Shown in pieces: positions 17,426 through 63,359 of a stretch of 64,000 nt of DNA (within the stretch, counting starts at the first letter, position 1; each line of letters begins with the position of its first letter). This DNA is from Cyanosarcina radialis HA8281-LM2 (lineage in GTDB: Bacteria; Cyanobacteriota; Cyanobacteriia; Cyanobacteriales; CCAP-1448), in the NCBI GenBank assembly GCA_019359615.1, contig JAHHHA010000008.1:1-64000 (forward strand), in the 5' to 3' direction. The translations under genes were made by a program, and so were the position numbers. The notes under the pieces were generated by a model that was given only the letters and a program-made list of their open reading frames with translations, made no database searches and was not told the DNA's origin.

Positions 17426-17806
17426 ATGGACGCACTTCAGCAGCAAATAAGCGCCTTAAACTATAAGGTTGATGCGCTACATCAAATCTTGGAATCTTTG
17501 AGTCATAAGGTTTTGGAGTCCTTGCAGTCAGATAAAGCCAACTCGGAAGCAGACGACAACAGCTTGTCAAATTCTCTCGCTAATGCCAGAAGAAATACCT
17601 ACCAAGATCGTAGTAATTTTGACTCATCGATCGAACATAAAGATGTTCTCGTCGATCTCAATGGTTTGGAAATAAATACTCAAAAAAGCTGCCATAAGGA
17701 GTTTTCCGCCGAAATTCAAATTCAACGCTTAACCGCGCAACTTACAGCCGCCTACAATCGCATTGCTGCTTTAGAAGAACAATTGCTAGCCAAGCGGGTA
17801 CACTAA
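17426..17806 (+). CDS. Unknown small coiled-coil protein
   Basis: From ATG 17426 the protein is 126 residues and begins with a heptad pattern (LQQQISALNYKVDALHQILE). A polar centre follows, then a second coiled coil (RLTAQLTAAYNRIAALEEQL) near the C-terminus. The frame is open 72 bases further upstream only from a TTG. No family was recognised. The two coiled coils suggest an oligomeric scaffold or adaptor. Confidence 0.6.
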   Translation: MDALQQQISALNYKVDALHQILESLSHKVLESLQSDKANSEADDNSLSNSLANARRNTYQDRSNFDSSIEHKDVLVDLNGLEINTQKSCHKEFSAEIQIQRLTAQLTAAYNRIAALEEQLLAKRVH

Positions 17807-17810
17807 ATGA

Positions 17811-17950
17811 GTTCGGAGTTCGGAGTTAAGGAAGTGTTGAGTGTTGAGTGTTGAGTGTTGAGTGTTGAGTTAAGAAACTTCTCCCCATCTCCCCATCTCC
17901 CCATCTCCCCATCTCCCCATCTCCCCATCTCCCCATCTCCCCATCTCCCT
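17811..17950. repeat. Composite repeat cassette 1
   Basis: Order: GTTCGGA-type octamers (17811-17826), then about five GTTGAGT heptamers to 17870, then the core GAGTTAAGAAACTTCTCCCC, then about eight and a half tandem CTCCCCAT octamers (17881-17948). It fills the whole space between the coiled-coil gene and the moxR remnant. The same left-core-right order recurs at seven other places. Confidence 0.9.
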
Positions 17951-17953
17951 CTC

Positions 17954-18502
17954 CTACCTGGGAACTGGGACTCGATCGAGTAAAGATGTAACTACGGCAT
18001 CAACTGGCAATCCATCTAGTTGAGCTTCTGGTTTTAAAATCAGTCGATGACACAATAGGGGTAGGGCAACAGCCTTAACATCATCTGGCGTGACGAAGTT
18101 TCGCCCTGCTAGCCAAGCAGAAGCTTTACTCGTCTGCAACCAAGCCACGGCCGAACGGGGAGATCCTCCTAATGCTAAATCGGGATGCTGGCGCGATCGC
18201 TGCACTAAACCTAACAGGTAATCGACGATCTTTTCGTCAACCTTAATGGCACTAACTGCTTGCCTCGCTTGTAAAATCTGCTCTACGGTGGCTACAGGTT
18301 TGATTCGAGCCAGATCTAGCCTTCGCGACTGAAAGCCAGCTTGACGATCGAGTAACTTCTGTTTCTCGCTGTTGGCATCGGGATAGCCGACTACTAACTT
18401 GAATAAAAATCGATCGAGTTGGGCTTCGGGTAGGGGATAAGTGCCTTCAAATTCCAAAGGGTTTTGAGTGGCAATTACCCAAAATAGCTCTGGTAGAGGC
18501 AA
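17954..18502 (-). pseudogene. MoxR-type AAA ATPase, N-terminus lost by deletion
   Basis: MoxR ATPases act as chaperones that mature or insert metals into partner enzymes. Only the C-terminal 182 residues are present, from LPELFWVIATQNPLEFEGTY (sensor 1 region), LPEAQLDRF, LGGSPRSAVAWLQTSKA (sensor 2) to RNFVTPDDVKAVALPLLCHR. Walker A and Walker B, roughly 130 residues, are missing. The open frame begins abruptly at 18502, where it is joined to the 5' end of another gene. Truncation through a deletion, or an assembly join, is more likely than a genuine short protein. Confidence 0.8.
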
Positions 18503-18828: not shown

Positions 18829-18900
18829 AGCCGATGAGGGGATTTGAACCCCTGACCGTTCGATTACGAATCGAATGCTCTACCACTGAGCTACACCGGC
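18829..18900 (-). tRNA. tRNA-Thr (anticodon CGU)
   Basis: The complement folds as a complete cloverleaf. The acceptor stem is GCCGGTG/CATCGGC (one G-U pair), with D arm TAGCTCAGTGGTAGAGC, anticodon stem TTCGA/TCGAA around loop TTCGTAA (anticodon CGT, reading ACG) and T arm AGGGGTTCAAATCCCCT. CCA is not encoded. The 72-base length is normal. It is a single tRNA. Confidence 0.97.
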
Positions 18901-20470: not shown

Positions 20471-21418
20471 GTGAATTATTTTGCTCTTCTTGTCGGTCAA
20501 CGCCAAGCTGTCGAACTGCTGACCCAAGCAGTTGCTAAAGACCGAATCGCGCCAGCATATTTATTTGCGGGCCCTAACGGCGTGGGCAAAAAGATGGCGG
20601 CTCGCTGTTTTGTAGAATTAATTTTTAGTGCTGCCGTTCCTGCCGAAGAGCATCCCCTCGTTCAAAAACGCTTACAACAGGGCAATCACCCAGATTTACT
20701 TTGGGTAGAACCGACTTATCTGCACCAAGGGCAACGCCTATCGGCGGCCGAAGCGGCGACGGCAGGAGTCAAGCGCAGATCGCCACCCCAAATTCGGATC
20801 GAGCAAGTGCGAGAAATCGATCGGTTTTTGAGCCGTCCGCCTTTGGAAGCCAAGCGATCGCTCGTAGTTATCGATCGAGCCGAAACCATGGCAGAAGGCG
20901 CAGCCAACGCTTTACTCAAAACCTTAGAAGAACCAGGGCAAGCAACATTAATTCTAATTGCCCCCTCGATCGAGTCTCTGTTACCGACTTTGGTATCTCG
21001 CTGTCAGCGGATTCCTTTTTATGGCTTAGCTCCAGAAGAAATGAAGCAAGTGCTAACCGCCAATGGTAGCGAACAAATTTTAGGACAGCCAGAAATACTT
21101 GCCCTGGCTCAAGGCTCTCCCGGAGAAGCGATCGCTAGTTGGCAGCAACTACAATCGATTCCTCCCGATTTGCTGGAGTTAGTTCGTTCCTTTCCTCAAA
21201 CACCGCGCCAAGCTCTAGAAATCGCTCGCCAGATCGACAAAACACTCGATCTGGAAACACAGCTATGGCTAGTAAATTATTTACAGCACTGCTACTGGGA
21301 GCGGGATCGCCATCGCAATGCGATCGAACATTTAGAAAAAGCTCGCCAATATCTCCTCAGTTACGCTCAACCGCGATTGGTGTGGGAATGCTTGCAGCTA
21401 GCAATGCTGGAGAAGTAA
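20471..21418 (+). CDS. holB: DNA polymerase III delta-prime subunit
   Basis: This clamp-loader subunit works with tau/gamma and delta to load the sliding clamp. The protein begins VNYFALLVGQRQAVELLTQA from a GTG at 20471; the frame extends to a TTG at 20402 overlapping murQ, but homologs begin near the GQ..AVELL motif. It has a P-loop-like GPNGVGKKMAAR, the delta-prime SRC-type motif VSRCQRIPF and ANALLKTLEEPGQATLILIA. There is an insertion (HLHQGQRLSAAEAATAG type region near 80-105) where the zinc-module Cys residues of other families would be. Length 315 is typical for cyanobacteria. Confidence 0.92.
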   Translation: MNYFALLVGQRQAVELLTQAVAKDRIAPAYLFAGPNGVGKKMAARCFVELIFSAAVPAEEHPLVQKRLQQGNHPDLLWVEPTYLHQGQRLSAAEAATAGVKRRSPPQIRIEQVREIDRFLSRPPLEAKRSLVVIDRAETMAEGAANALLKTLEEPGQATLILIAPSIESLLPTLVSRCQRIPFYGLAPEEMKQVLTANGSEQILGQPEILALAQGSPGEAIASWQQLQSIPPDLLELVRSFPQTPRQALEIARQIDKTLDLETQLWLVNYLQHCYWERDRHRNAIEHLEKARQYLLSYAQPRLVWECLQLAMLEK

Positions 21419-21556
21419 GGAGTTTAGAAGTTTAGAAGTTCAGGAGTTCAGGAGTTCAGGAGTTCAGAATGTCAGCAGTCAGTTGTCAGTAGTTAATTTT
21501 CTCTTCTGCTCCCCCATCTCCCCATCTCCCCATCTCCCCATCTCCCCATCTTCGCC
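21419..21556. repeat. Composite repeat cassette 2
   Basis: Left tract: AGTTTAGA then four AGGAGTTC octamers (21420-21470). Linker: GAATGTCAGCAGTCAGTTGT. Core: TAGTTAATTTTCTCTTCTGC. Right tract: CTCCCCCATCTCCCCATC tandems to about 21551. It separates convergent holB and the HlyD-type gene and is nearly the same as cassette 51669-51787. Confidence 0.9.
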
Positions 21557-21558
21557 CT

Positions 21559-23517
21559 CTACTGACTTGGCGAACCGCCAGAATCAGGAGCGATCGCCGC
21601 GCCATCGGTCAGGTTGAGTACGCCAGCGGTGACGATTTCTTGTCCGGGTTGTAAGCCTTCTAGCACTTGATAATTGTTACCCTGAATCTCTCCTAGCTTG
21701 ACTGGCTTTTGCCTCGCTACCAGTTGCGGTTGACCCGACTGAGACTCCGTGGATCTTTCGGCCACAAACACGAAAGTTTGCCCGCCCAACCGAGAGACGG
21801 CGTTAACTGGAATCACGATTCCAGAACGCTCGTTCCAGATGATTCTGGCTGGCACGAACTGGCGATTGAGTAACGCTCTACCAGCGTTTGCAAAGCTGGC
21901 TTTAGCCAGAACTGTTTGGGAATTGGCATCGACATTAGGGGCAATAAAACTCACTTGCCCGGTCGCGATCGCTTTGCCCTGAGTATCTAGCACTTCTACT
22001 GGCAATCCCAAGCGCAACTCGGAGGAGCGGTTGAGAGGAACTGGGATATTGAGTTCCAAAAAGTCGTTTCTAGTAATGGTGGTGAGTTCGTCACCTTGGC
22101 TGACAAAATCCCCTGTTTTGATGGGAATATCGCCCACAGTGCCAGCAAACGGAGCTACAACTCTAGTTTTTTGTAGTTGCACTTCTGCGGCTTTAACTTG
22201 GGCAGAGGCTTGAGCTACTTGCGATCGCGCTTGAGCGATTGCTTCCGGGCGAGTGCCGTTTTGCAGTTGTCTGAGGGCTTGTTGGGCTTCGGCTACGGCC
22301 GCTTGTCTTTGGGCAATTACTTCGGGACGAGTGCCGTTTTGCAGTTGTCTGAGGGCTTGTTGGGCTTCGGCTGCGGCCGCTTGTCTTTGGGCAATTACTT
22401 CGGGACGAGTGCCGTTTTGCAGTTGTCTGAGGGCTTGTTGGGCTTCGGTTACGGCCGCTTGTCTTTGGGCAATGTCTTGCTGGGTGCTGTTTTGCACTTG
22501 CTGTAAGTTTCTTCGGGCCTCTTCTAAGTTAGCTTGGGCGGTTTTGTTATCTGCTTCTGCCTCGTCGAGTCGATCTTGAGCGATCGCTCCTTGTTGTCGT
22601 AAACCCCGATATCTTTGCGCTCGCACTTCGGTAAGCGCGGCTTGGGCTTGGGTCGAATCTACTCTAGCTTGCGCTTGTCTTAGCTGCTCCGGGCGATTGT
22701 TCTGTACTTGTTCCCGATTGGCCTGGGCTTGGGCGAGACGCGCTCTGGCTTGGGCAATCTCTTCCGAGCGACTGCCTGCTCGTGCTTCTGCCAGATTTGC
22801 TTGGGCTTGGGCAAGACGCGCTCTGGCTTGGGCGATCTCTTCCGGGCGACTGCCTGCTTGCGCTTCTGCCAGATTTGCTTGGGCTTGGGCGAGACGCGCT
22901 TGGGCTTGGGCGATTTCTTCCGCGCGACTACCTGCTTGCAGTTCCGACAGACGCGCCAGGGATTGTTGCAGCCCAGCTTGAGATTGTTGCAATTGAGCTT
23001 GCAAATCTTGACTTTCTAACTGCAATAAGACTTGTCCGGGCTGAACGCGATCGCCTTCACTCACTAAAAGTTGGCTGACGCGGCCGTCGATCTCTGGCTT
23101 GATTACCGAGGCGCGGGGAGCATCTAGAGTGCCTACCAACTGCGTTGCATCTCGAACCTCTGCCGTTTCCACCGTGGCTAGCTTGACGGGCAAGGCTTGA
23201 GGTTGACCCGCTCCGGGACCTCCAGGAGCCTGGGCGCTATTCTGAGTCTGGCTGCTTTGCCACCAGTACCACCCAGCACCCGCACCGCCGAGGATTGCGA
23301 TCGCTAGTGCTAGCAGCAGCGGCCAGCGGCGCTTTTTGGTTGGCGGCTTCGGCTGTTTATCTACCAGAAACTCGTCTTGCAGATCTACATCTGATTCAGG
23401 TTCCCCATCTAAAAGTAACTTGTCGGTTTTCGGTTGGCGATCGTCTGGCAATTGCTCTGTCTCTTCTGAAACTGGGGACTCTGGGGACTCTGGATGGGGC
23501 ATCTTTAATTTCCTCAT
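21559..23517 (-). CDS. HlyD/RND-type membrane fusion protein with repeated coiled-coil hairpin
   Basis: A periplasmic adaptor that should link an inner-membrane pump to an outer-membrane channel. After an acidic cytosolic head there is one TM helix (WPLLLALAIAILGGAGAGWY, about residues 65-84). Then come the biotinyl-lipoyl half motif (GRVSQLLVSEGDRVQPGQVL), a very long alpha-hairpin (about 180-440), the second lipoyl half (VVAPFAGTVGDIPIKTGDFV) and the beta-barrel. The ascending helix has three about 26-residue repeats (EEIAQARARLAQAQANLAEA), the descending helix three 25-residue repeats (QRQAAVAEAQQALRQLQNGT). At 652 residues it is far longer than the usual 350-450. No pump gene is adjacent. 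Confidence 0.9.
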   Translation of the reverse strand: MRKLKMPHPESPESPVSEETEQLPDDRQPKTDKLLLDGEPESDVDLQDEFLVDKQPKPPTKKRRWPLLLALAIAILGGAGAGWYWWQSSQTQNSAQAPGGPGAGQPQALPVKLATVETAEVRDATQLVGTLDAPRASVIKPEIDGRVSQLLVSEGDRVQPGQVLLQLESQDLQAQLQQSQAGLQQSLARLSELQAGSRAEEIAQAQARLAQAQANLAEAQAGSRPEEIAQARARLAQAQANLAEARAGSRSEEIAQARARLAQAQANREQVQNNRPEQLRQAQARVDSTQAQAALTEVRAQRYRGLRQQGAIAQDRLDEAEADNKTAQANLEEARRNLQQVQNSTQQDIAQRQAAVTEAQQALRQLQNGTRPEVIAQRQAAAAEAQQALRQLQNGTRPEVIAQRQAAVAEAQQALRQLQNGTRPEAIAQARSQVAQASAQVKAAEVQLQKTRVVAPFAGTVGDIPIKTGDFVSQGDELTTITRNDFLELNIPVPLNRSSELRLGLPVEVLDTQGKAIATGQVSFIAPNVDANSQTVLAKASFANAGRALLNRQFVPARIIWNERSGIVIPVNAVSRLGGQTFVFVAERSTESQSGQPQLVARQKPVKLGEIQGNNYQVLEGLQPGQEIVTAGVLNLTDGAAIAPDSGGSPSQ

Positions 23518-36240: not shown

Positions 36241-36378
36241 AAAAGTGTTAAGTGTTGAGTGTTAAGTGAGGAGTTTAGGAGTTTAGAAGTTTAAGAGTAG
36301 GGGCGCAATGCATTGCGCCCGTACAGGAGTGTTGAGTTAATAGTTCTCATCTCGCCCTCCTCGCCCTCTTCCCCCTCT
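36241..36378. repeat. Composite repeat cassette 3, with a nested palindrome
   Basis: GTGTTAAGTGTTGAGTGTTA (36246 on) is interrupted by GAGGAGTTTAGG-type octamers and by the palindrome GGGCGCAATGCATTGCGCCC (36301-36320). It then resumes as GTGTTGAGTTAATAGTTCTC (36331 on) and ends in CATCTCGCCCTCCTCGCCCT tandem units. The core AGTTAATAGTTCTC matches the other cassettes, so the palindrome block looks inserted into a pre-existing cassette. Confidence 0.85.
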
Positions 36379-36380
36379 CC

Positions 36381-37229
36381 CTAAGATGTCATTTTCACCG
36401 AAGAAACTGTTTTCACCTCTGTCATAGCATTTAAACTGCGGCGGGTGGCTTCCACAAATTGACTGACGCGAATGGGATCTATAGGCAGATCGATCCGTCC
36501 TTGGCGCTTGAGGGAACTGGAGACGATGACACCATCAGCCGCTGGCAGTAAAGTCGCAATATTTTCCCAGTTGGCACCGCTGCCGATAAACACTGGCGTA
36601 CCTCTAGCCGCTGCACTCGCCAATTCTAAATCTTCTAAGCTAGGAGGACTGCCAGTTGCCCAGCCAGAGAGAATTACCGCGTCGGCTAGTCCCCGTTCGA
36701 TCGTCTCTTGAACGGCTGTGGTCAAATTGGGAGAACCTAACGGGCGGGCGTGTTTCACTAAGACATCAGCCAAAATTTTGACCTCGCTACCTAATTCCCG
36801 ACGATAGCGTAACAGTTGATGTGCCTGCCCTTCGATCAGTCCTTGATCGGTGGCCATAACGCCCGTTAGGACGTTAACGCGAATAAATTGAGCGTTGACG
36901 CAAGTAGCGATCGCCATGGCACTGCGGGCATCGTTGCGTAACACGTTAATTCCTATCGGTAGCGTGACTAGGTTCATCAGCCGCTGGACGATGAGAGTCA
37001 TGGCGCTGACTGTTGCCGGATCTACCAGATCTTTGGTAAAAGGGGCATCAAAAAAATTTTCGACCATAATGCCATTCACCCCGCCAGCAGCCAAGGCAGC
37101 GGCTTCCTGTTCGGCGCGATCGAGAACTGCTTTCAAACTGCCGCCCCAACGGGCAGAAGTCGGCAGAGGCAATAAATGCACTACACCGATAATGGGATTA
37201 GGGGTCTTGAAGATTTTGTGTAAATTCAC
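36381..37229 (-). CDS. btpA: BtpA-family photosystem I biogenesis protein
   Basis: BtpA is a thylakoid-associated protein needed to stabilise photosystem I reaction-centre proteins in Synechocystis, notably at low temperature. The 282-residue (beta/alpha)8 protein shows IIGVVHLLPLPTSARWGG near 13-30, GVNGIMVENFFDAPF near 51-65, VTLPIGINVLRNDARSAM near 93-110, GQAHQLLRYRRELG and SGWATGSPPSLEDL, then FIGSGANWENI. Members in other bacteria are predicted TIM-barrel enzymes. It is divergent from rimO. Confidence 0.95.
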   Translation of the reverse strand: MNLHKIFKTPNPIIGVVHLLPLPTSARWGGSLKAVLDRAEQEAAALAAGGVNGIMVENFFDAPFTKDLVDPATVSAMTLIVQRLMNLVTLPIGINVLRNDARSAMAIATCVNAQFIRVNVLTGVMATDQGLIEGQAHQLLRYRRELGSEVKILADVLVKHARPLGSPNLTTAVQETIERGLADAVILSGWATGSPPSLEDLELASAAARGTPVFIGSGANWENIATLLPAADGVIVSSSLKRQGRIDLPIDPIRVSQFVEATRRSLNAMTEVKTVSSVKMTS

Positions 37230-41511: not shown

Positions 41512-41611
41512 AAGTTTCGAGAGTTGAGAAATTAGAAGCTTCTAAAATTCTGAACTCCTGTTGGCGTAGCCTGCGCTCGGCGCATACTCCTGAACTTCTG
41601 AACTTCTCATT
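41512..41611. repeat. Octamer repeat debris
   Basis: GAACTCCTGTTGGCGTAGCC, GCGCTCGGCGCATACTCCTG then AACTTCTGAACTTCTC. A GAACTTCT tandem is split by a GGCGTAGCC-type dispersed repeat, similar to the arrangement at 55639-55712. Confidence 0.6.
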
Positions 41612-41612
41612 C

Positions 41613-43205
41613 TTACAATACTTCCAATTTCCTCAACACTTGAGGTTTGAGCCGCTCGAATTCTTCCTTGAGAAGCTTTTTGCTCATTTTAGATTGACCG
41701 CTCGCTCCCGCCGTTCTGCTAGTAGTTATCCATTCCAATAACATGGGACGTTGTTTTGATGGAACTGTTAAATTCATTACGTAAGCGCAACGTTCTGGTT
41801 TTTCTAAACTGAAGAATAACAGGCGATAACTACCAACTTTTTCTAACAATTGAGTTAGTTCTTGCCCCATAGAACTTTTGAGATCTAGATAGCAAGGTAG
41901 CCATCTAGGACCTTGTTGCGGATTGTATAAAGCTGTAATCCACAACATCATCGGATGAGGAGAGGGCAAAAATAGAAATTGCTTATAGGGGTTGTAAGAG
42001 TTACTTCGCCGACGACCTTCAATCTCTTCTTGAGACAACATTACCCACAAACTGGGTACAGATTCCTGGTGATTGCGCAGGATATGAGGAAAGACAATTT
42101 CCGCTTTCGGTTTATCTGACGGCCAAGAAGCTTTGTAACAAATGTCATCAATTGAAAGATAGAGAGTTTCTCTGGTAGGCTGAGTAGATTGAGTAGCCGA
42201 TTTAGATTGAGAAACCTTTTTAGTTTCCTTGACTTTTTCCTTTTCTGGTTCCTTTATGGGTTCGACTTGAGGTGGTTTTTCAGGGGCTTTTTCTTCGATC
42301 GCTTCTCGAAGTTGCGTCGGCTTGCTAGCAATTTCAGTTTCTATAATTTGGAGAATTTCACTTATACTTTGGGGCCGCTTGTCCTTGGCTTTAGCTAAAC
42401 ATTTCATTACCATGTCAGCTATCGGTTTAGGAAATCTGAAATTAGCATCGATCGACTCAAACGATCGAGGTGGTTGGTAGTGGTGAACTTTATACCAACT
42501 GCCAAAAGAGTGAGTATCTGCCCTCAGAGGAATTTCCCCGGTGAGCATCTCAAACATCATCACTCCCAAGCTGTAAATGTCGGAGCGATTGTCTAATTCT
42601 TTGCCCTCCATTTGTTCTGGCGAGCAATAAGCTAAAGTGCCCTTAAAGGAGTGGGTAGCCTCTTCTTCTGCTTGCAGTTTGGCAATCCCAAAGTCGAGAA
42701 CCTTAACTAGTTCTCCAAAACTTAAATCTTGAACCACCAGGATGTTGCTGGGCTTGATATCCCTGTGAATTACTGGATACAGTTTGTTGTCCATGAAGAT
42801 CCCGTGATGGGCGGACTGCAACCCCAAACAGATCTGGCGGACCAAACTCAAAAATCGAGGCATCGTCAGAGATTCTTTTTTGATGACATCTCTAATACTG
42901 TCTCCCTTGAGGAATTCCATGACGTAAAAGGGCGTTTCGGTAAAGTCGTCTACGCCATAATCTCGAACTCGAATGATGTGAATGCTGCGTTCGCCTAGTT
43001 GCGCCGATATCTTAGCTTCTCGCTCGAAGCGATCGCGGGCTTTCTTACTAATAACTGTTTGAGAGAGAAACTTAACGGCTACTATCACCCCTCCCAAGTT
43101 GTTATCTTGGGCTTGATACACCCGACCCATTGCCCCTTTACCTATCAACTCTCCTAGTTGATAGCGATTGGAAAGTAAGCGACCGTAGTAAGGATCTTTG
43201 CTCAT
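41613..43205 (-). CDS. Ser/Thr protein kinase with unique C-terminal domain
   Basis: The kinase domain (about 1-285) has GKGAMGRVY, AVKFLSQ, HRDIKPSNIL, LDFGIAKL and GTLAYCSPEQM, so it should be active. A highly charged linker follows (PEKPPQVEPIKEPEKEKVKE) near 303-345. The last 185 residues form a soluble domain (ETLYLSIDDICYKASWPSD ... LLFFSLEKPERCAYVMNLT) that recurs in cyanobacterial kinases but has no known function. No TM helix: this is a cytosolic kinase, unlike the two at 23-27 kb. It is upstream of the phosphoesterase on the same strand. Confidence 0.92.
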   Translation of the reverse strand: MSKDPYYGRLLSNRYQLGELIGKGAMGRVYQAQDNNLGGVIVAVKFLSQTVISKKARDRFEREAKISAQLGERSIHIIRVRDYGVDDFTETPFYVMEFLKGDSIRDVIKKESLTMPRFLSLVRQICLGLQSAHHGIFMDNKLYPVIHRDIKPSNILVVQDLSFGELVKVLDFGIAKLQAEEEATHSFKGTLAYCSPEQMEGKELDNRSDIYSLGVMMFEMLTGEIPLRADTHSFGSWYKVHHYQPPRSFESIDANFRFPKPIADMVMKCLAKAKDKRPQSISEILQIIETEIASKPTQLREAIEEKAPEKPPQVEPIKEPEKEKVKETKKVSQSKSATQSTQPTRETLYLSIDDICYKASWPSDKPKAEIVFPHILRNHQESVPSLWVMLSQEEIEGRRRSNSYNPYKQFLFLPSPHPMMLWITALYNPQQGPRWLPCYLDLKSSMGQELTQLLEKVGSYRLLFFSLEKPERCAYVMNLTVPSKQRPMLLEWITTSRTAGASGQSKMSKKLLKEEFERLKPQVLRKLEVL

Positions 43206-43941: not shown

Positions 43942-43977
43942 AGCAGCTACCTGGTTCCAATGTGAATCATCATACCA

Positions 43978-44118
43978 GGAGGAGGGAAGAGGGCGAAGAG
44001 GGCGAAGAGGGCGAAGAGGGCGAAGAAAATAGCAAGAGATCGAGTTGTAGGGGCGGGTTTAGCCAGCAATATCGTCCGTCAACCATTAAGGTTGGCTCGA
44101 ACCCGCCCTGCCTCACCA
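43978..44118. repeat. GGGCGAAGA tandem and GGCGGGTT inverted repeat
   Basis: GAAGAGGGC nonamers repeat about four times at 43986-44025. Next, GGGGCGGGTTTAGCC (44051-44065) and GGCTCGAACCCGCCCT (44095-44110) form an imperfect inverted repeat around a 30-base loop. Open frames across this tract are low-complexity artefacts. Confidence 0.8.
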
Positions 44119-46957: not shown

Positions 46958-48307
46958 ATGCGGTTTGAAAAAATTCTGATTGCTAATCGAGGGGAAATCG
47001 CCTTACGCATTCTCCGCACCTGCGAAGAAATGGGGATTGCCACCGTTGCCGTTCACTCTACTATCGATCGACACGCTCTCCACGTCCAGTTAGCTGACGA
47101 AGCTGTTTGTATTGGGGAACCTCCTAGCAGCAAAAGCTACTTAAACATTCCTAATATTATTGCTGCGGCTTTGACGCGCAATGCCACGGCAATTCACCCC
47201 GGATACGGTTTTTTGGCAGAAAATGCCCGATTTGCCGAAATTTGTGCCGATCACAAGATTGCTTTTATCGGTCCGACTCCTCAAGCGATCCGATCGATGG
47301 GAGATAAATCTACTGCCAAAGAAACGATGCAAAAAGCTGGCGTGCCTACAGTTCCGGGCAGCGATGGCTTATTGGTTTCGGAAAAAGAGGCCCTAGAGAT
47401 CGCGGCAGAAATTGGCTATCCCGTCATGATCAAAGCCACCGCTGGCGGCGGCGGCCGGGGAATGCGCCTAGTTAAAGAAGAAGGGGAATTCGTCAAGCTG
47501 TTTTTAGCCGCTCAAGGTGAAGCGGAAGCGGCTTTTGGCAACTCTGGCGTTTATCTAGAAAAATTTATCGATCGCCCGCGTCACATCGAATTTCAAGTCT
47601 TGGCAGATGGTTACGGCAATGTCGTTCACTTGGGAGAACGCGATTGCTCGATTCAACGTCGCCATCAAAAATTGCTAGAAGAAGCCCCCAGTCCAGTTTT
47701 GACTCCAGAACTGCGAGCAAAAATGGGCACGGCAGCAGTAATGGCAGCTAAATCGATTAACTACGTCGGGGCGGGCACGGTAGAGTTTTTGTTAGATGGC
47801 TCTGGCAAGTTCTACTTTATGGAGATGAACACCCGCATTCAGGTAGAACATCCAGTTACAGAGATGATTACTGGCTTAGATTTGATCGCCGAACAAATTC
47901 GGGTAGCTAGAGGCGAAAGATTGGGATTTACTCAAGAACAGGTGTCGTTTCGGGGTCACGCGATCGAGTGTCGGATCAATGCCGAAGATCCCGATCGCAA
48001 TTTCCGCCCACAACCCGGTCGGATCGGCGGCTATTTGCCTCCAGGAGGGCCGGGAGTGCGGATGGATTCCCACGTTTACACCGACTACGAAATCCCGGCC
48101 TATTACGATTCCTTGATCGGTAAATTGATCGTCTGGGGGAGCGATCGACCGACTGCGATCGAAAGAATGAAACGCGCTCTTCGGGAATGCGCCATTACAG
48201 GCGTAATCACCACGATCGGCTTCCATCAAAAGATCTTGGAAACTCCAGAGTTCCTTAAAGGGGAAGTTTATACCAATTTTGTCGAACAGATGATGAGCCG
48301 GGAGTAG
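46958..48307 (+). CDS. accC: Acetyl-CoA carboxylase, biotin carboxylase subunit
   Basis: AccC carboxylates the biotin of AccB with ATP and bicarbonate, the first step of fatty-acid synthesis. The 449 residues begin [20 protein letters not shown], with the ATP-grasp Gly loop [14 protein letters not shown] near 161-174. [20 protein letters not shown]-type and [20 protein letters not shown] motifs, [18 protein letters not shown] and RINAEDP follow, in normal order and length. accB is not adjacent, as is usual in cyanobacteria. Confidence 0.98.
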
Positions 48308-48383
48308 GGAGAGGGAGCAGGGGGAGCAGGGGGAGCAGGGGAGGAAATTAACTCCTGACTTCTGACTTCTGACTTCTGACTTC
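48308..48383. repeat. Composite repeat cassette 4 (inverted orientation)
   Basis: Tandem GGGGAGCA octamers (48310-48343) are followed by GAGGAAATTAACTCC and four CTGACTTC units to 48382. Read on the minus strand the order is GAAGTCAG repeats, core GAGTTAATTTCCTCCCC, then TGCTCCCC repeats, the same as other cassettes. It touches the stop of accC and overlaps the end of yggT. Confidence 0.85.
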
Positions 48384-48672
48384 AATGCACCATCATCGTC
48401 AGCAATCCCTGCTGTCCTAGCAGCAATTCTCGCAGCAGGCTGAAAATTCCTACCCAAATGATGGGAGTGATATCGACACCTCCTATGGGGGGAACGATTT
48501 TCCGTAGGGGAATTAAAAAAGGTTCGGTCGGCCAAGCAATGAAATTAAACGGCCAGCGGTTGAGATCTAACTGGGGATACCAAGTCAGAACGATCCGAAA
48601 AATAAACAAAAAGGTCATTACTCCCAGCATCAAAGCCAGGATTGTATTTCCTAACGCAGTAATATCGGTCAT
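48382..48672 (-). CDS. YggT-family membrane protein (Ycf19-like)
   Basis: 96 residues with two hydrophobic hairpins (ALMLGVMTFLFIFRIVLTWY near 12-31 and IWVGIFSLLRELLLG near 72-86) and the family motif PTEPFLIPLRKIVPPIGGVD near 47-66. YggT/Ycf19 proteins are small cell-membrane or thylakoid proteins linked to division and osmotic or nucleoid defects; the exact role here is unknown. Transcribed opposite to accC. Confidence 0.92.
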   Translation of the reverse strand: MTDITALGNTILALMLGVMTFLFIFRIVLTWYPQLDLNRWPFNFIAWPTEPFLIPLRKIVPPIGGVDITPIIWVGIFSLLRELLLGQQGLLTMMVH

Positions 48673-49084: not shown

Positions 49085-49418
49085 GGTAAGTTACAATTTA
49101 TTAGTTATCAAATGTGTGAACTACTGCCCCCTTACCGAAGCAGTTTCTTGCGACCACCCAGGCTGCAACTATTGGGGAACGATACCCAGTTACAGTGGAA
49201 CCACTTTACGCGATCGCCTGTCCCCTGCGCGTTCGTTCTATACTAAATTTTAACATATATGGGGAAGTGGAAGAAGATAAAAATAAGGAATTCTGAACTT
49301 CTGAACTCCTGAACTTCTGTATGCTTCCCAAAGTTCTTCCGTAAAAATCCTCAAGACTTGAGAGCGATTTTTTGGATATAACTAGCTAACATAGATCTAA
49401 GCTATTACAAGAGCAGCA
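49085..49418. other. Intergenic region between psbX and ycf66
   Basis: No gene is supported; the open frame at 49071-49253 lacks any ribosome site. At 49290-49320 is TTCTGAACTTCTGAACTCCT-GAACTTCTG, a GAACTTCT octamer tract of the cassette type. A ycf66 promoter must lie close to 49380, not identified. Confidence 0.6.
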
Positions 49419-51668: not shown

Positions 51669-51787
51669 TTTAGAAGTTCAGGAGTTCAGGAGTTCAGAAT
51701 GTCAATTGTCAGTTGTCAGTAGTTAATTTTCCCCTCTGCTCCCCTGCTCCCCCTGCTCCCCCTGCTCCCCCTGCTCCCCCTGCTCTC
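51669..51787. repeat. Composite repeat cassette 5
   Basis: Left: AGTTTAGAAGTTCAGGAGTT-type octamers (51668-51697). Linker: AATGTCAATTGTCAGTTGTC. Core: TAGTTAATTTTCCCCTCTGC. Right: CCCCTGCT octamers (51742-51784). It matches cassette 2 (21419-21556) almost exactly in order and linker. Confidence 0.9.
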
Positions 51788-51979
51788 TCAAGGCAGCCCC
51801 AACCAAGTAAATAGATCTTGGCGGGTAAAAAGCTCTAGGAGCAACAGAGCGATAAAACCCACCATGGCAAAGCGACCGTTGATTTGTTCGGCGTAAGGCG
51901 AAAACCCAAAAGCTGGTTCTGGGGCGCGATAAGGTTCTGGTGATGAAGTTTCAGGAGTAGATTCGGTTTCGGGATTCAT
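51788..51979 (-). CDS. One-helix high-light-inducible protein (Hlip/Scp)
   Basis: 63 residues: an acidic, Pro-rich start (SSPEPYRAPEPAFGF), then the chlorophyll-binding helix EQINGRFAMVGFIALLLLEL with the Glu/Asn/Arg motif of LHC-type proteins. It is a typical Hlip that binds chlorophyll and carotenoid and protects photosystem II assembly under stress. Its ATG overlaps the stop of sdhB (ATGA), so it is translationally coupled to that gene. Confidence 0.95.
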   Translation of the reverse strand: MNPETESTPETSSPEPYRAPEPAFGFSPYAEQINGRFAMVGFIALLLLELFTRQDLFTWLGLP

Positions 51980-55322: not shown

Positions 55323-55742
55323 TTGGGTTTAGATGGCGAAAGCTCTAACTGATGGAGTTGTGTTTATCCCTCTAGCGGCAATTTTAGCGATCGAGAGCAG
55401 TAGTAAACTGAAGGGTAGCCCTAAAACCAATTCAGTGGGAACTGGGGAAAGATAGCCCCCTATCGATCGCCAGAACTTCATTCTGTTCTGAGTTTGGGCC
55501 AATCCCGAACCTCCCTAAAGAGGCGAGATCTCGCGTCTCTAAAACTCCATCTGCGGGCGAAGCATTTGGTAAATAACCTTTGGGACACGTCATATAAGTT
55601 ATCGCCTAAATGCTAAGTACAAGAGACAGGCTGCGCCTTAGCAAAACCATGCCGCAGGCTATACGCCCCTACTCCTGAACTTCTGAACTCCTGAACTCCT
55701 GTATTCTTTTCAATAGCTCTTGCTGCTAATTTAAAAAAATCA
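55323..55742. other. Intergenic region upstream of the site-2 protease
   Basis: No gene is supported. It contains a REP-like palindrome (55519-55540) and at 55632-55667 ACAGGCTGCGCCTTAGC, then GCCGCAGGCTATACGCCC, a GGCGTAGCC-type repeat. At 55675-55705 is CCTGAACTTCTGAACTCCTG, an octamer tract. Confidence 0.6.
55519..55540. repeat. REP-like palindrome
   Basis: AGAGGCGAGATCTCGCGTCTCT, an inverted repeat with one mismatched pair about an AGATCT centre, flanked by CTAA and AAAA. Same outer arm type (GAGACG) as 16551-16572. Confidence 0.7.
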
Positions 55743-57430: not shown

Positions 57431-59701
57431 TTATGCTGTTAAAGGCAAAGAGGCATTGACTAAAGATAACAATGGTCCGGTTTGCTCTTGCCCGTTGACG
57501 GCTAAATCGCTGTGACACAGATAAATGCGATCGCCTGCCCGACTGAGTAAATCTCGGACGATCCGCTGCAATCTTTCTTCATCTACTATTTGAGCGTCAG
57601 CGGCCGTCCAAGGTTGTCCCGACCAATTTTTGAGAAACAAAGGAGCGGCAAACAAAGTAGCAGCCCCGCCGCTCATCCATAATGGGGAACTAGCATCGAG
57701 CCAAAATTGCCACTTGTGGAATTGCCGACTGGCACGATATTGAAAAATATTGGCCAAGGTGACGGCTTCCGCCGCTGGCTGGAAACGGCCGATAGGATAA
57801 GGATTGGCCGTAACCGTACCCTGACGCAGCAACAGGATAAATTGAGCGATCGTGGTATGGGCAGGAGCCTCGATTTGTTCGCTTTGCCGCCAGCGTTCGT
57901 TTACTTCCCAGTAATGTTGGGCCGTTTCCATCAGTTCTCGCAGCGCCGCCAGTCGATCGTAAGGCAGGTAGCTACCATTCCACAAAAATTCTTGAATGGC
58001 GCGATCGAGTAAAACAACACAGGAAGGAATGAGGCGCATCTGTTGCTGCTGTTGCTGCACCTCCAACCATTGCAAAATCCGTTCGTAAGCGGCCGTCGCT
58101 CGATGTCCCAACCGATCCCAGCGGGGAAAAGCCGTCACTGGTAGCAAACGGGGTTGTTCCAAATCCGGGCAATAGCAGTGATCCGCCAGCAACCCCGCCC
58201 GCACCGGATCGATATCAGTTTTAAGTGTTAAGTGTGGAGTGTTGAGTGTTGAGTTAAGAAATTCCCCCTTGTCTCCCTCTCGCCCTCTTCGCCCTCTCTC
58301 CCCATCTCCCCATCTCCCCATCTCCCCCTCCCCTGCTCCCCCTGCTCCGCACTCTCTCGCCCGCTCCTCTCCTCTCTCTTCCCTACTACTGAGGACTACT
58401 AGCATTTCGGCGATCGCTTCTCGGTCTACCAAACGCCCCAAACCTGGATAAACGAGGGTTAACAGAGTTAGTAATGCCCGAATCATCGGGGAAGCAATCA
58501 GAGGGCGCTGTTCGTTGAGCGATTCGGCGGCGATCCCTTTGGTGGCCAGAATTTCGGTTAGGGTATAACGAGCGATCGCATCTAAACCAGGAGCGATGAC
58601 GACGATTTCTGATGGCTTAACTTCGCCGCTTTGTACTGCCCGAATAATTACTGCTGCTGTTTGCCGCAGCATTTGCCCTCTGGATATAGTTTGAATTGAG
58701 GGGATAGCATCGGGGAGAGCAGTCAAAAAAGTCGGATCGGTGGCTAGTTCTACTACCGTTTCTCCTATCGATTCAGCCAAGCAAGGAAATCGTTTTTGAG
58801 TTAAAGTTTCTACCTGACAGCGGAATTTCAACCCTGCCAAGTATTGAGGATCGGCGTTCAATCCCAAGCGAATGGCCCCATCAGGGTTAAAGGTAAAAGC
58901 GCCAATGGCTCCTCGATCTAAAAGTAAATCGAATAAATCGCGGGCGATCGCGGGATAATCGTCAACATCATCTGCTAGCACTGCCTGATATCGATGGCTC
59001 AAATGTTGCTGATAAGTCGCATCGGGCAACAGATAGCGCCAATAAAGTTCGCTAATTATCCCGTAACTAAGCAATCCTCTCTCTAAACACCACCCGCGCC
59101 ACTCTAGCAATAATTCCCCTACCCAATCCCAAGCAGCCCTCATCCCATCTCCCCATCTCCCCATCTCCCCATCTTCCTCTCCCCCACTCTCCAAACCCCG
59201 ATCCAACATCTGGGGAATTTCCTCTGTTGGCGTACCGCTCAGGGCTGCTAGTTGGAGTAAATCTAGGATGCGGCGCACTGCCCGATATTCGTTGGCTGCC
59301 ATCTGCTGTAACTTGCTGCTGTCTAGTCGATCGCGCCATAATCGAGTTGCTAGCTCTTGTTCTGTTTCCGGGCGCAGCCTCAGCGGAAATTGGGCTTTCA
59401 ACCCCAATCGTTGAATTAACAGCGGCCAAAACAGCATTACCTCATCTTGGAAAAAACCTAAAGGAGTCTTGGCCAAAATGGGATACCGCCCGCTACAAGC
59501 CTCAGCTAGCTTGTCGGCTAAGTCTCGTTTGTTGTCATCATTGGCAGCAAAAACTAAAATCCCTGGTGCTTGCCGAGAACGACTCCGCTTGCTTGTTGCC
59601 AACAGTCGTTCTTCTTGCAGCCATTGGCAAAATAGATCTATCAGGCGAGTTGTCTTACCGCTACGACTCGTACCCGTCAGCCAAATTGAATTAGAAACCA
59701 C
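57431..59701 (-). CDS. Large P-loop ATPase (helicase/recombinase-like) with in-frame repeat insertions
   Basis: 756 residues. A Walker A, GTSRSGKTTR, at residues 10-19 and a Walker B-like VLADDVDDYPAIARDLFDLL near 240-260 place it with UvrD/AddB-like superfamily 1 proteins, often labelled recombinase. ILVFAANDDNKRDLADKL (motif Ia-like), GEVKPSEIVVIAPGLDAI and ATKGIAAESLNEQRPLIASP (later helicase motifs) support this. No nuclease motif or Cys cluster was seen. Two low-complexity stretches are encoded by intergenic-type repeats: GEMGRWGDG near 180 and a block of about 55 residues near 440-494 (GEMGRWGDGERGRRGREG, then NSTLNTPHLTLKTD). Function is otherwise inference. Confidence 0.82.
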   Translation of the reverse strand: MVSNSIWLTGTSRSGKTTRLIDLFCQWLQEERLLATSKRSRSRQAPGILVFAANDDNKRDLADKLAEACSGRYPILAKTPLGFFQDEVMLFWPLLIQRLGLKAQFPLRLRPETEQELATRLWRDRLDSSKLQQMAANEYRAVRRILDLLQLAALSGTPTEEIPQMLDRGLESGGEEDGEMGRWGDGMRAAWDWVGELLLEWRGWCLERGLLSYGIISELYWRYLLPDATYQQHLSHRYQAVLADDVDDYPAIARDLFDLLLDRGAIGAFTFNPDGAIRLGLNADPQYLAGLKFRCQVETLTQKRFPCLAESIGETVVELATDPTFLTALPDAIPSIQTISRGQMLRQTAAVIIRAVQSGEVKPSEIVVIAPGLDAIARYTLTEILATKGIAAESLNEQRPLIASPMIRALLTLLTLVYPGLGRLVDREAIAEMLVVLSSREERGEERARECGAGGAGEGEMGRWGDGERGRRGREGDKGEFLNSTLNTPHLTLKTDIDPVRAGLLADHCYCPDLEQPRLLPVTAFPRWDRLGHRATAAYERILQWLEVQQQQQQMRLIPSCVVLLDRAIQEFLWNGSYLPYDRLAALRELMETAQHYWEVNERWRQSEQIEAPAHTTIAQFILLLRQGTVTANPYPIGRFQPAAEAVTLANIFQYRASRQFHKWQFWLDASSPLWMSGGAATLFAAPLFLKNWSGQPWTAADAQIVDEERLQRIVRDLLSRAGDRIYLCHSDLAVNGQEQTGPLLSLVNASLPLTA
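58221..58384. repeat. Composite repeat cassette 6, inside a coding region
   Basis: GTGTTAAGTGTGGAGTGTTG and AGTGTTGAGTTAAGAAATTC (core) lead into CTCTCGCCCTCTTCGCCCTC and CCCATCTCCCCATCTCCCC tandems. On the minus strand the whole cassette reads without a stop as part of the ATPase at 57431-59701. A second, smaller CTCCCCAT tract (59140-59180) is also in frame in the same gene. Confidence 0.88.
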
Positions 59702-61289: not shown

Positions 61290-61387
61290 AAGTTTAGGAG
61301 TTTAGAAGCTATGGAAGTGTTAAGTGTTGAGTGTTGAGTTAAAAATTCTCCCCTGCTTCCCCTGCTTCCCCTGCTTCCCCCTCTCCT
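61290..61387. repeat. Composite repeat cassette 7
   Basis: GTGTTAAGTGTTGAGTGTTG (61317 on), core GAGTTAAAAATTCTCCCC, then CCCTGCTT octamers (61353-61378) and CCCCCTCTCCTC. It lies between pcxA and the convergent coiled-coil gene. Confidence 0.9.
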
Positions 61388-62164
61388 CTAAATTTGAAGC
61401 TGGCCGCGACAGACTACTAGGCTTTCTGCTAGTTGAGCGAGGCGAGTCTCTAACAGTTCTTTCTGATTTACCAGTTGGCGGAGTTTTTGGTAACGTGCGA
61501 TCGCTAAGCTGACAGCCGGAACTTGTCTCGCCGGACAGCGTTTCGACCATAACTCACCGTTTTCATCTAATCCACAGAGGCGATAGTCAGCTAGAGCAGA
61601 ACCGTCAGTTTGAGTCAGAGTTTTTTCGACATAATTCATCAATTCATCGATTTCAGCGTGTCGAAGAGAGGTAATGTTTTTATCTGGGTCGTTAGAGTGA
61701 GACTCTAACCAACCATTAATAATTGGTCCTTCTTGATGAAGAGATTCTATTTGCTGTTGAATTCGATTTAATTCTTGCTGCCAACTGGTAACTAACTGTT
61801 GCAACTCTTGCAGCAGGTTCATCGCGAGGTCGGGATTAGTGATGGGTTGAGATTGTTTGACTTGAGGAGACTTTAACTTGGGTAATACTGGTGTCTGGTT
61901 CTGAGGCTTTTGGACGGGAAAAGGCTCGACATTAGCTGAGGAATGGGAGCGAGTTTGAGCTTTTTTGCGATCGCCCGACGGTGACTTGTGATGCAGGGTA
62001 GTACCAAACAATGGGTCGTTAAGCGATCGAGAGGAATTTGCTGACGGTGAATTCAGCCCCTCGTTTGGAGAAGCATAAAAATCGTCATTGGTGGAACTGT
62101 ACTCTCCCGCTCGGTAATCGATCGGCTCGATCGGCTTTCTATTTGGTTGTTGATTCCCACTCAT
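61388..62164 (-). CDS. Unknown coiled-coil protein
   Basis: 258 residues. The first 110 are Ser/Asn/Pro-rich and disordered (EGLNSPSANSSRSLNDPLFG). A long coiled coil follows (MNLLQELQQLVTSWQQELNR and IQQQIESLHQEGPII). A compact C-terminal part has SALADYRLCGLDENGELWSK and a second coiled segment LRQLVNQKELLETRLAQLAE. No family recognised. It may be a regulator or structural factor; context (pcxA convergent, cobU divergent) gives no hint. Confidence 0.7.
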   Translation of the reverse strand: MSGNQQPNRKPIEPIDYRAGEYSSTNDDFYASPNEGLNSPSANSSRSLNDPLFGTTLHHKSPSGDRKKAQTRSHSSANVEPFPVQKPQNQTPVLPKLKSPQVKQSQPITNPDLAMNLLQELQQLVTSWQQELNRIQQQIESLHQEGPIINGWLESHSNDPDKNITSLRHAEIDELMNYVEKTLTQTDGSALADYRLCGLDENGELWSKRCPARQVPAVSLAIARYQKLRQLVNQKELLETRLAQLAESLVVCRGQLQI

Positions 62165-62312: not shown

Positions 62313-62852
62313 ATGGCACGATTAATATTAGTAACGGGCCCGGCTAGATCTGGCAAAAGCGAGTGTGCAGAAACTTTGGCGATCGCCTCTGGTAAGCTGG
62401 TAGTCTACACTGCCACAGCCCAGATCGAGCCATCTGACCTAGAATGGCAAGCCCGAATTGCCCAACACCAAAGTCGTCGTCCGGCTAGCTGGAAACTGCT
62501 GGAAGTCCCAATAGATTTGTCCGGTACAATTCGAGAAGCGATCGCTAGTGAGTGCGTGCTAATCGATTCTCTAGGGACTTGGGTGGCAAATTTACTAGCG
62601 GTTGATGACGACAGTTGGGAAAATATCGTCCAAGAATTGCTAGAGAGTTTGCGGCAAACCTCGGCGGAGGCGATATTGGTAGCCGAGGAAACTGGTTGGG
62701 GTGTAGTTCCAGCCTATCAGAGCGGCCGATCGTTCCGCGATCGCTTGGGAAAACTAGTCAGGCAAGTGGGAGCGATAGCTAATCCAGTTTATCTAGTGAC
62801 TGGCGGACACGTCCTCAACCTCAGTCAACTCGGTTCTCCTTTGCCAAGCTAA
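62313..62852 (+). CDS. cobU: Adenosylcobinamide kinase / guanylyltransferase
   Basis: CobU phosphorylates adenosylcobinamide and then adds GMP in (pseudo)cobalamin assembly. From ATG 62313 the 179-residue protein starts MARLILVTGPARSGKSECAE with P-loop GPARSGKS (9-16). It has VVYTATAQIEPSDLEWQARI (the usual A-(T/R)-A...D.E...RI motif), HQSRRPASWKLLEVPIDL with the catalytic His, and LIDSLGTWVANLL. All are family features at normal length. The frame upstream of 62313 is probably not translated. No other cobalamin gene is near. Confidence 0.95.
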   Translation: MARLILVTGPARSGKSECAETLAIASGKLVVYTATAQIEPSDLEWQARIAQHQSRRPASWKLLEVPIDLSGTIREAIASECVLIDSLGTWVANLLAVDDDSWENIVQELLESLRQTSAEAILVAEETGWGVVPAYQSGRSFRDRLGKLVRQVGAIANPVYLVTGGHVLNLSQLGSPLPS

Positions 62853-62856
62853 GCTA

Positions 62857-62925
62857 GATGAGAGAGGGAGAGTGGGCAGAGAATTTTCAACTCAACACTT
62901 AACACTCAACACTCAACACTTTTAA
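62857..62925. repeat. Composite repeat cassette 8 (inverted orientation)
   Basis: GAGAGGGAGAGTGGGCAGAG (right tract), AATTTTCAACTC (core complement), then ACTCAACACTTAACACTCAA-CACT heptamers to 62922. Read on the minus strand it has the order of the other cassettes, with core GAGTTGAAAATTCTC. It is between cobU and the Cys-rich gene. Confidence 0.85.
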
Positions 62926-62930
62926 AAAAG

Positions 62931-63359
62931 ATGGCTTCCGAACAACAAGTTAAACAGTATCTCTCTTATTGGTTTCAGTTGGGAAAAAAAGTCTTAATTC
63001 ACAACGGTCGAGAAGCTTTGCTACCCAAACCCGTGATTAACGGCGATTGCTACAGTGAAGAATTTGAAAAATGTTGGCAGCAAATACTCTTGCCAGAGTC
63101 AGGAGATTGCTATCTCGAAGGAACTGACGAAACTATCGCCCAGCTATTAACTCCAGCTTGGGATGTAAGTTCCTGTTCGCGGTGTGCGATGCCCGTTCCG
63201 GTAATGAATGTCGGGGTAGCTTCTTTAGTATGTCCTTGTTTCGATCTATCTTCGTGGCCGAATACAGAACTGCCAACGCCGCGATCTCCCATCGATACCC
63301 AACGTCGTCTCAAAGATATTCGCGATCGACTGCCAATAGTTAACCAGAAAGATGATTAG
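62931..63359 (+). CDS. Unknown Cys-rich protein
   Basis: 142 residues beginning MASEQQVKQYLSYWFQLGKK. The centre has DVSSCSRCAMPVPVMNVGVA and SLVCPCFDLSSWPNTELPTP, a CxxC and a later CxC that could bind a metal. It ends in a charged helix (TQRRLKDIRDRLPI). There is no signal peptide. The pattern looks conserved, but I do not recognise the family. A promoter-distal position after cobU and a repeat cassette makes operon membership unlikely. Confidence 0.7.
   Translation: MASEQQVKQYLSYWFQLGKKVLIHNGREALLPKPVINGDCYSEEFEKCWQQILLPESGDCYLEGTDETIAQLLTPAWDVSSCSRCAMPVPVMNVGVASLVCPCFDLSSWPNTELPTPRSPIDTQRRLKDIRDRLPIVNQKDD

Follow-up and report, generated by a model that had tools for sequence, protein, structure and literature searches.

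Composite tandem-repeat cassettes of Cyanosarcina radialis, between genes and in frame within them

Many bacterial genomes contain an excess of heptamer repeats, usually explained by slippage (PMC4692102, PMC4679880). In Nostoc and Xanthomonas, G-rich heptamers of this kind form G-quadruplexes (G4) in vitro and are located near gene ends; those of Nostoc PCC 7120 are GGGGA(T/C)T repeats, few of them paired, and convergent pairs have been reported in Xanthomonas (PMC4692102). A second known kind, the Rickettsia palindromic elements (RPEs), consists of dispersed DNA of 100-150 bp that is found between genes and in frame in conserved genes, mostly at tolerated positions (PMC2229807). REPINs are present in Nostoc punctiforme (PMC3116915), and SDRs, as they are cited in passages of PMC6513891 and PMC2884548, are very small mobile repeats of cyanobacteria.

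The window examined here is a stretch of 64,000 nucleotides (contig C50) from Cyanosarcina radialis HA8281-LM2, whose genome comprises 6.5 Mb in 65 contigs. An earlier note on this DNA described eight cassettes in which a left tract of short tandem units is joined by a constant core to a C-rich right tract, with units swapping on both sides, and took the cassette rather than the tract to be the unit that spreads. All eight are present where that note placed them, with the layout and orientation it gave. Each appears to represent a dispersed composite repeat, about 130 bp long, non-autonomous and lineage-specific, that has been added by copying and expanded by slippage, and this is regarded as the probable explanation.

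Composition and number of the cassettes

The features of the window are as follows, with refined cassette extents accurate to about 15 nt and boundaries taken from a purpose-made segmentation and gene caller.

17804..17954, plus strand: composite cassette; left AGTTCGG/GTGTTGA tract, core GAGTTAAGAAACTTCTCCCC, right CTCCCCAT tract; occupies the spacer from the stop at 17806 (plus-strand gene) to the AAA-ATPase gene 17954-18502 (minus strand)
21419..21560, plus strand: composite cassette; left AGGAGTTC/TTGTCAG, second core subtype AGTTAATTTTC, right CCCCATCT; first base directly after the stop at 21418 of the DNA polymerase III delta' gene, other end extending to the convergent HlyD-type gene
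36246..36399, plus strand: composite cassette; core GAGTTAATAGTTCTC, right CGCCCTC units; flanked by two minus-strand genes
36300-36320: palindrome GGGGCGCAATGCATTGCGCCC, interrupting the left tract of the cassette at 36246..36399
41539..41641, minus strand: left-tract-only array
43969..44038, minus strand: right-tract-only array, GAAGAGGGC units on the plus strand
48306..48409, minus strand: composite cassette; left GAAGTCAG, core GAGTTAATTTCC, right CCCCTGCT; adjoins the biotin carboxylase gene (46958-48307) at its stop
49286..49327, minus strand: left-tract-only array, AGAAGTTC type
51672..51789, plus strand: composite cassette; left AGGAGTTC/TTGTCAG, core AGTTAATTTTC, right CCCCCTGCT; begins past the stop at 51668 of the trypsin-like protease gene
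55669..55708, minus strand: left-tract-only array, CAGGAGTT type
58203..58383, plus strand: composite cassette, antisense and in frame within the 756-aa gene 57431-59701 (minus strand); codes for about 40 additional residues (REERGEERARECGAGGAGEGEMGRWGDGERGRRGREGDKGEFLNSTLNTPHLTLK)
59148..59185, plus strand: right-tract-only insertion of CTCCCCAT units in the same gene; codes for GGEEDGEMGRWGD
61292..61408, plus strand: composite cassette; exact core GAGTTAAAAATTCTCCCC (61336-61353), left GTGTTGA, right TTCCCCTGC; begins past the stop of the CemA-family gene (61289)
62838..62943, minus strand: composite cassette; left GTGTTGA tract, short right tract; occupies the spacer of 78 nt that separates CobU (stop 62852) from the gene that follows (62931)

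Two details of the earlier description need correction: the cassette given at 58221 is not intergenic, lying in frame inside a gene, and the left tract at 36241 is not uninterrupted, since the palindrome GGGGCGCAATGCATTGCGCCC stands within it. The same palindrome occurs in left tracts at two unrelated sites, the other being on contig C21 near position 61,540, within an NRPS gene, and it seems to be a distinct small dispersed repeat lying within the left tract. Elsewhere in the window, tandem repeats of 78 bp at 22231-22980, inside the HlyD-family membrane-fusion gene 21559-23517 (minus strand), are probably coding repeats of a coiled coil. The sole Rfam match in a scan of the window is a tRNA gene at 18829-18900 (minus strand).

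Matches to the core with at most two mismatches number 150 in the whole genome (73 forward, 77 reverse), compared with none for a reversed-pattern control, and 39 other genomes of the order have only 0-7 each, about their control level; the eight cassettes are therefore not a product of chance. The composites were counted in a sample of 1,263,607 bases, consisting of the window and 1.2 Mb of unselected DNA that covers most of contigs C21, C37, C28 and C16. In 69 cases a C-free run precedes a G-free run, each being at least 30 nt long, as against 10 in the opposite order, a comparison that is independent of unit sequence and for which Markov sequences give 0-1. With strict unit patterns, a left tract lies immediately upstream of 48 of 104 right tracts, and none lies downstream or is inverted. 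A segmentation of the sample with five states and equal switching priors yields 398 tracts, versus 26 in the reversed decoy, and 111 left-to-right composites versus 15 for all remaining pairings together, which bears out the composite cassette as the usual form. Finally, nhmmer at E<1e-3 returns 89 matches, with none in the decoy. Extrapolation from the 111 composites gives about 570 per 6.5 Mb, and the family is confirmed as real and more numerous than first described.

The composites have a fixed order of C-free left tract, AT-rich centre and G-free, C-rich right tract, and a median length of 130 bp. A period of 7 predominates on the left (78/108) and one of 8-9 on the right (81/108). The full usual layout consists of a AGGAGTTC-type block, the non-periodic stretch GCTATGGAAGTG, a GTGTTGA-type block, the core, and right units that are CTCCCCAT, CCCCTGC or CGCCCTC; the non-periodic stretch and the core are both found again at many loci.

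The idea of a single constant core is not borne out. There are two core subtypes, each tied to a left tract type, and the core quoted in the earlier note is matched exactly only at 61336, with the second core in the cassettes at 21419, 48308 and 51669. GTGTTGA-type left tracts have the core GAGTTAA(A/G)AATTC in all 57 scored cases. The second core, AGTTAATTT(T/C)C, accompanies GTCAG-type left tracts, and the GAGTTAATTT core is found with both the GTCAG and the AGTTCAG left types (core subtype against left type, 57:0 versus 18:19; Fisher p=5e-10). Swapping of units around a kept core consequently stands mainly for the right side, the left being tied to the core. As for the pairing of left and right tracts, it is non-random only to a weak degree (correlation of left and right distances, Mantel r=0.14, p=0.03), the right types being nearly independent and the significance of the left-right type table coming only from the small AGTTCAG class. 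The left tract and core behave as one unit, with which right tracts mix.

Had cores occurred mostly without tracts, or tracts mostly without the core, the cassette would have been a doubtful entity; neither holds, and cores nearly always have tracts. The sample also contains solitary tracts, 91 left-only and 62 right-only, amounting to 45% of left and 36% of right tracts, and core remnants are rare beside them (7 of the left-only and 6 of the right-only tracts). Because so many tracts are solitary, mostly without core remnants, the tract too has to be regarded as a unit. This counts against the preferred explanation to the extent that tracts arise or move alone too.

Location in spacers and proteins

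By the gene calls of a purpose-made codon-usage caller, 96 of the 111 composites lie outside genes and 15 lie within called genes, all of them in frame. The median distance to the stop codon is -1 nt (97 three-prime distances). At 28 of these 97 sampled gene ends the stop codon is at least 12 nt inside the cassette, the edges being fuzzy, and many proteins may end in residues that repeat DNA encodes.

This closeness to stop codons would suit a functional element after genes, such as a terminator, a 3'-end stabiliser or a G-quadruplex regulator. A G-quadruplex motif is present opposite the right tract in 69 of the 111 composites, and 126 of the 230 such motifs in the 1.26-Mb sample belong to these elements, again for the most part opposite the right tract, which recalls the G4-forming heptamers near gene ends in Nostoc and Xanthomonas (PMC4692102). 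However, between tandem genes 31 cassettes are sense and 30 antisense, and this random orientation therefore speaks against a directional signal, whether terminator or regulator. Stable hairpins with a U-run, oriented with the upstream gene, are not the rule: RNA fold z-scores are modest, with means of -0.9 and -1.5 and about a third of 60 elements below -2. Cassettes are also present inside coding regions and are missing from the orthologous sites examined in relatives. The terminator or regulator reading was rejected on the random orientation, the functional account as a whole is very improbable, and the cassette as such is no regulator.

For convergent and divergent genes, a spacer that holds a composite has no greater length than the others (112 versus 121 nt and 267 versus 271 nt). 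Once the cassette is removed, very little native spacer is left, other than between divergent genes (promoter spacers): -14 nt in convergent and 21 nt in tandem spacers, compared with 121 and 110 nt in cassette-free ones (p=4e-11 and 3e-9). These values favour overwriting, in which the cassette replaces neutral sequence, as in gap-filling repair, and whole spacers or loops become cassette. The NRPS, PKS, ChlD and LdpA linkers point the same way, in that their native residues appear to be gone.

The host genes of the in-frame copies, named from our reading of their sequences, include those for ChlD, LdpA, Mfd, RsmE, FolC, an ABC exporter and NRPS/PKS linkers, and many single tracts are also in frame within called genes. 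ChlD, LdpA, Mfd and the 756-aa gene of the window (57431-59701, minus strand), for which no Pfam family was matched, were compared with up to 20 relatives each. In all four the cassette is present in C. radialis and not in the aligned relatives, which have short, variable native loops at the cassette positions. Several relatives match LdpA in two pieces, with the break at the cassette, and residues 1-442 and 492-755 of the 756-aa gene are matched in relatives as two separate pieces. As with RPEs, copies thus lie in frame within conserved protein genes and are missing in homologues.

In several PKS/NRPS modules on contig C21 (43,434-64,900 and 56,700-79,600) the variable linkers consist of cassette tracts; the NRPS module at C21:70,144 has none.

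Inside genes 13 composites are antisense and 2 sense. A stop-codon filter was rejected as the full cause of this excess and explains only part of it: GTGTTGA-type elements have 23 open antisense frames versus 12 sense, GTCAG-type elements have 1 versus 14, and across all intergenic composites sense frames are not scarcer.

Orthologous sites and the spread of copies

Presence and absence at orthologous loci, a check proposed with the original description, showed that copies are missing from all the sites examined in relatives, which belong to other genera. For eight gene pairs with a cassette, the same genes are neighbours in one relative, G015, and its spacers have no cassette; the G015 spacer orthologous to that of the cassette at 62838..62943 lacks it. 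The difference in spacer length relative to G015 has a median of +102 nt with a cassette and -76 nt without (p=2e-4), with a net gain of DNA at 7 of the 8 sites. In the SasA-GH57 promoter region, by our own reading, two conserved motifs are about 50 nt apart in three other genomes (G001, G021 and G026) and about 136 nt apart in C. radialis, with a cassette of about 88 nt in between; the native gap of about 48 nt would seem to have been retained. Because spacers with a cassette are longer than those of G015, and because the SasA-GH57 gap is widened, copies are taken to add DNA.

These sites bear directly on overwriting, since net gain and the seemingly preserved SasA-GH57 gap both speak against it. 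Cassette-free spacers in C. radialis are also shorter than those of G015 by a similar amount, which again tells against it. Pure replacement was rejected, with the comparison within the genome for it and the comparison with orthologues against it, and overwriting more broadly is a doubtful though not negligible alternative. Simple addition in turn is favoured by the ortholog comparison, but replacement or later loss is the better fit for convergent and divergent spacers that are no longer than others, and for the little native spacer left.

The orthologous spacer in G015 of a site on contig C37 (26,215-26,472) has repeats of its own lineage (GACTAATGGCTGATGACTA type), and the same spacer therefore holds different repeat families.

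Purely local slippage would have the tracts born in place, their composite look being a coincidence or the result of a mutational bias at AT-rich centres. The usual account of bacterial heptamers (PMC4692102, PMC4679880), the single tracts without a partner and the recurrence of the layout with different units in other cyanobacteria are in keeping with it. Against this, the same units and a non-periodic core stand at hundreds of loci here and not in relatives, the order is strict (111:15), and orthologous sites are shorter in relatives. Local slippage by itself is already disfavoured and has little probability. Copying between loci is required, because cores and junctions that are not periodic are shared, the copies are absent in relatives and the order is strict.

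A transposase-mobilised miniature element of the MITE, SDR or REPIN type, of which the core and inner tract ends are recognised and the outer ends vary by slippage, would account for the high copy number, the presence or absence of copies, the two orientations and the insertion in genes, and mobile SDRs and REPINs have been reported in cyanobacteria. However, the element edges have no conserved termini (on the left, information does not exceed 0.22 bit per position, and extents vary widely), and no target-site duplication was found, direct repeats in the flanks measuring 4.43 nt versus a null of 4.35 +/- 0.08, although a duplication of very few bases could escape because the edges are placed only to within about 15 nt. 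The genome has five Y1_Tnp matches, and in flanks of about 1.5 kb the searched cassette patterns are absent at four of these loci, with one two-unit left tract at the fifth; a RAYT link was rejected on this result. The core has no exact match in viral contigs, and one cassette used as a query has none in plasmids, which also weighs against such an element. Since fixed ends, target duplications and a transposase link are all lacking, a classic MITE or REPIN is unlikely, and a miniature element of any of these types is rather improbable.

The preferred explanation, that of a composite repeat spread by copying, would comprise three modules in a fixed order: a C-free tract of 7-8-bp units, a left-tied AT-rich centre and a G-free tract of 8-9-bp units. 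Copies would be introduced by copying and be retained at the sites of least constraint, directly past stops, in spacers and in protein loops. Their tandem units would grow and shrink by replication slippage, and copying among hundreds of copies may keep unit types uniform within the genome. As to the route of dispersal, template-directed patching, with another copy serving to mend DNA that is broken or stalled, is the leading guess, because the ends are not fixed, there is no target duplication, the left tract and core are inherited together and right tracts mix.

The wider distribution was followed with a 20-mer from the right tract, which has 825 matches in C. radialis and is found, patchily, in 45 of 390 genomes of the class. 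At 40 loci of other genomes, selected by this 20-mer only, a C-free run of at least 30 nt lies upstream in 10 and downstream in none (Wilcoxon p=7e-5). The left units at the other genomes' 20-mer loci differ (GGGAATA, GGCAAGA, ATTGGTA and others), and G015 has its own repeat forms; the layout therefore recurs with lineage-specific units. A broader proposal, that cyanobacteria across the class carry pairs of G-rich tracts arranged head to head round an AT-rich centre, with lineage-specific units, copied from a template into broken or stalled DNA of low constraint, in frame in essential enzymes as well, and homogenised by exchange between copies, is rather unlikely on present evidence.

Comparison with known repeat systems

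The composite order, high copy number, random orientation, absence from orthologous sites, net gain at most of them and residence in frame are all observed. Together they make an old puzzle testable, namely the lineage-specific short tandem repeats that fill cyanobacterial spacers. Here such repeats would not be independent products of slippage but would belong to a dispersed composite, one that also enters conserved enzymes in frame, and natural loop-insertion experiments would be on offer by the hundred, in ChlD and Mfd among other proteins. A caution also follows for annotation, in that low-complexity 'WGDGEMGR' and 'TQHSTLN' protein segments of this organism are repeat-derived. Searches of the literature for the tract DNA motifs and the encoded peptides returned no relevant papers, and a head-to-head composite with a left-tied core, hundreds of copies and in-frame residence was not found in the literature searched, in which SDRs were judged from citations only.

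The closest described systems share some of these properties. Head-to-head interstitial telomere arrays have a G-rich and then a C-rich tandem repeat on one strand; the cassettes differ in having different units on each side and a fixed orientation, and no telomerase is known; the likeness is one of analogy only. SDRs were reportedly described by Elhai and co-workers in 2008 as short mobile cyanobacterial repeats, with mobility that was inferred. They have defined units of about 20 bp, with sequences known as SDR1-6, whereas the cassette is about 130 bp long with tandem tracts on both sides. REPINs with RAYT are like the cassettes in being non-autonomous, abundant, intergenic and of inverted compositional symmetry (PMC3116915), but the cassettes have no REP palindrome and essentially no copies beside Y1_Tnp genes.

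The two known kinds that come nearest are the tandem heptamers of cyanobacteria and the in-frame palindromic elements of Rickettsia (PMC4692102, PMC2229807). With the short tandemly repeated repetitive (STRR) heptamers of cyanobacteria and the repeats of Nostoc PCC 7120 the cassettes share tandem units of 7-9 bp, heptanucleotides among them, a mostly intergenic location (96/111), G-richness on one strand and occurrence at hundreds of loci; they are unlike them in that two different tracts are joined head to head via a specific core and that this composite is the usual form. RPEs have long stem-loops and terminal inverted repeats, whereas in the cassettes the ends vary, the units are tandem and a strong hairpin is missing, with no long palindromic stem-loop apparent from the mean fold z-scores given above. 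Both are dispersed, and both are intergenic as well as in frame within conserved protein genes, and the cassette's habit of in-frame insertion may, by analogy, be likened to that of the Rickettsia elements.
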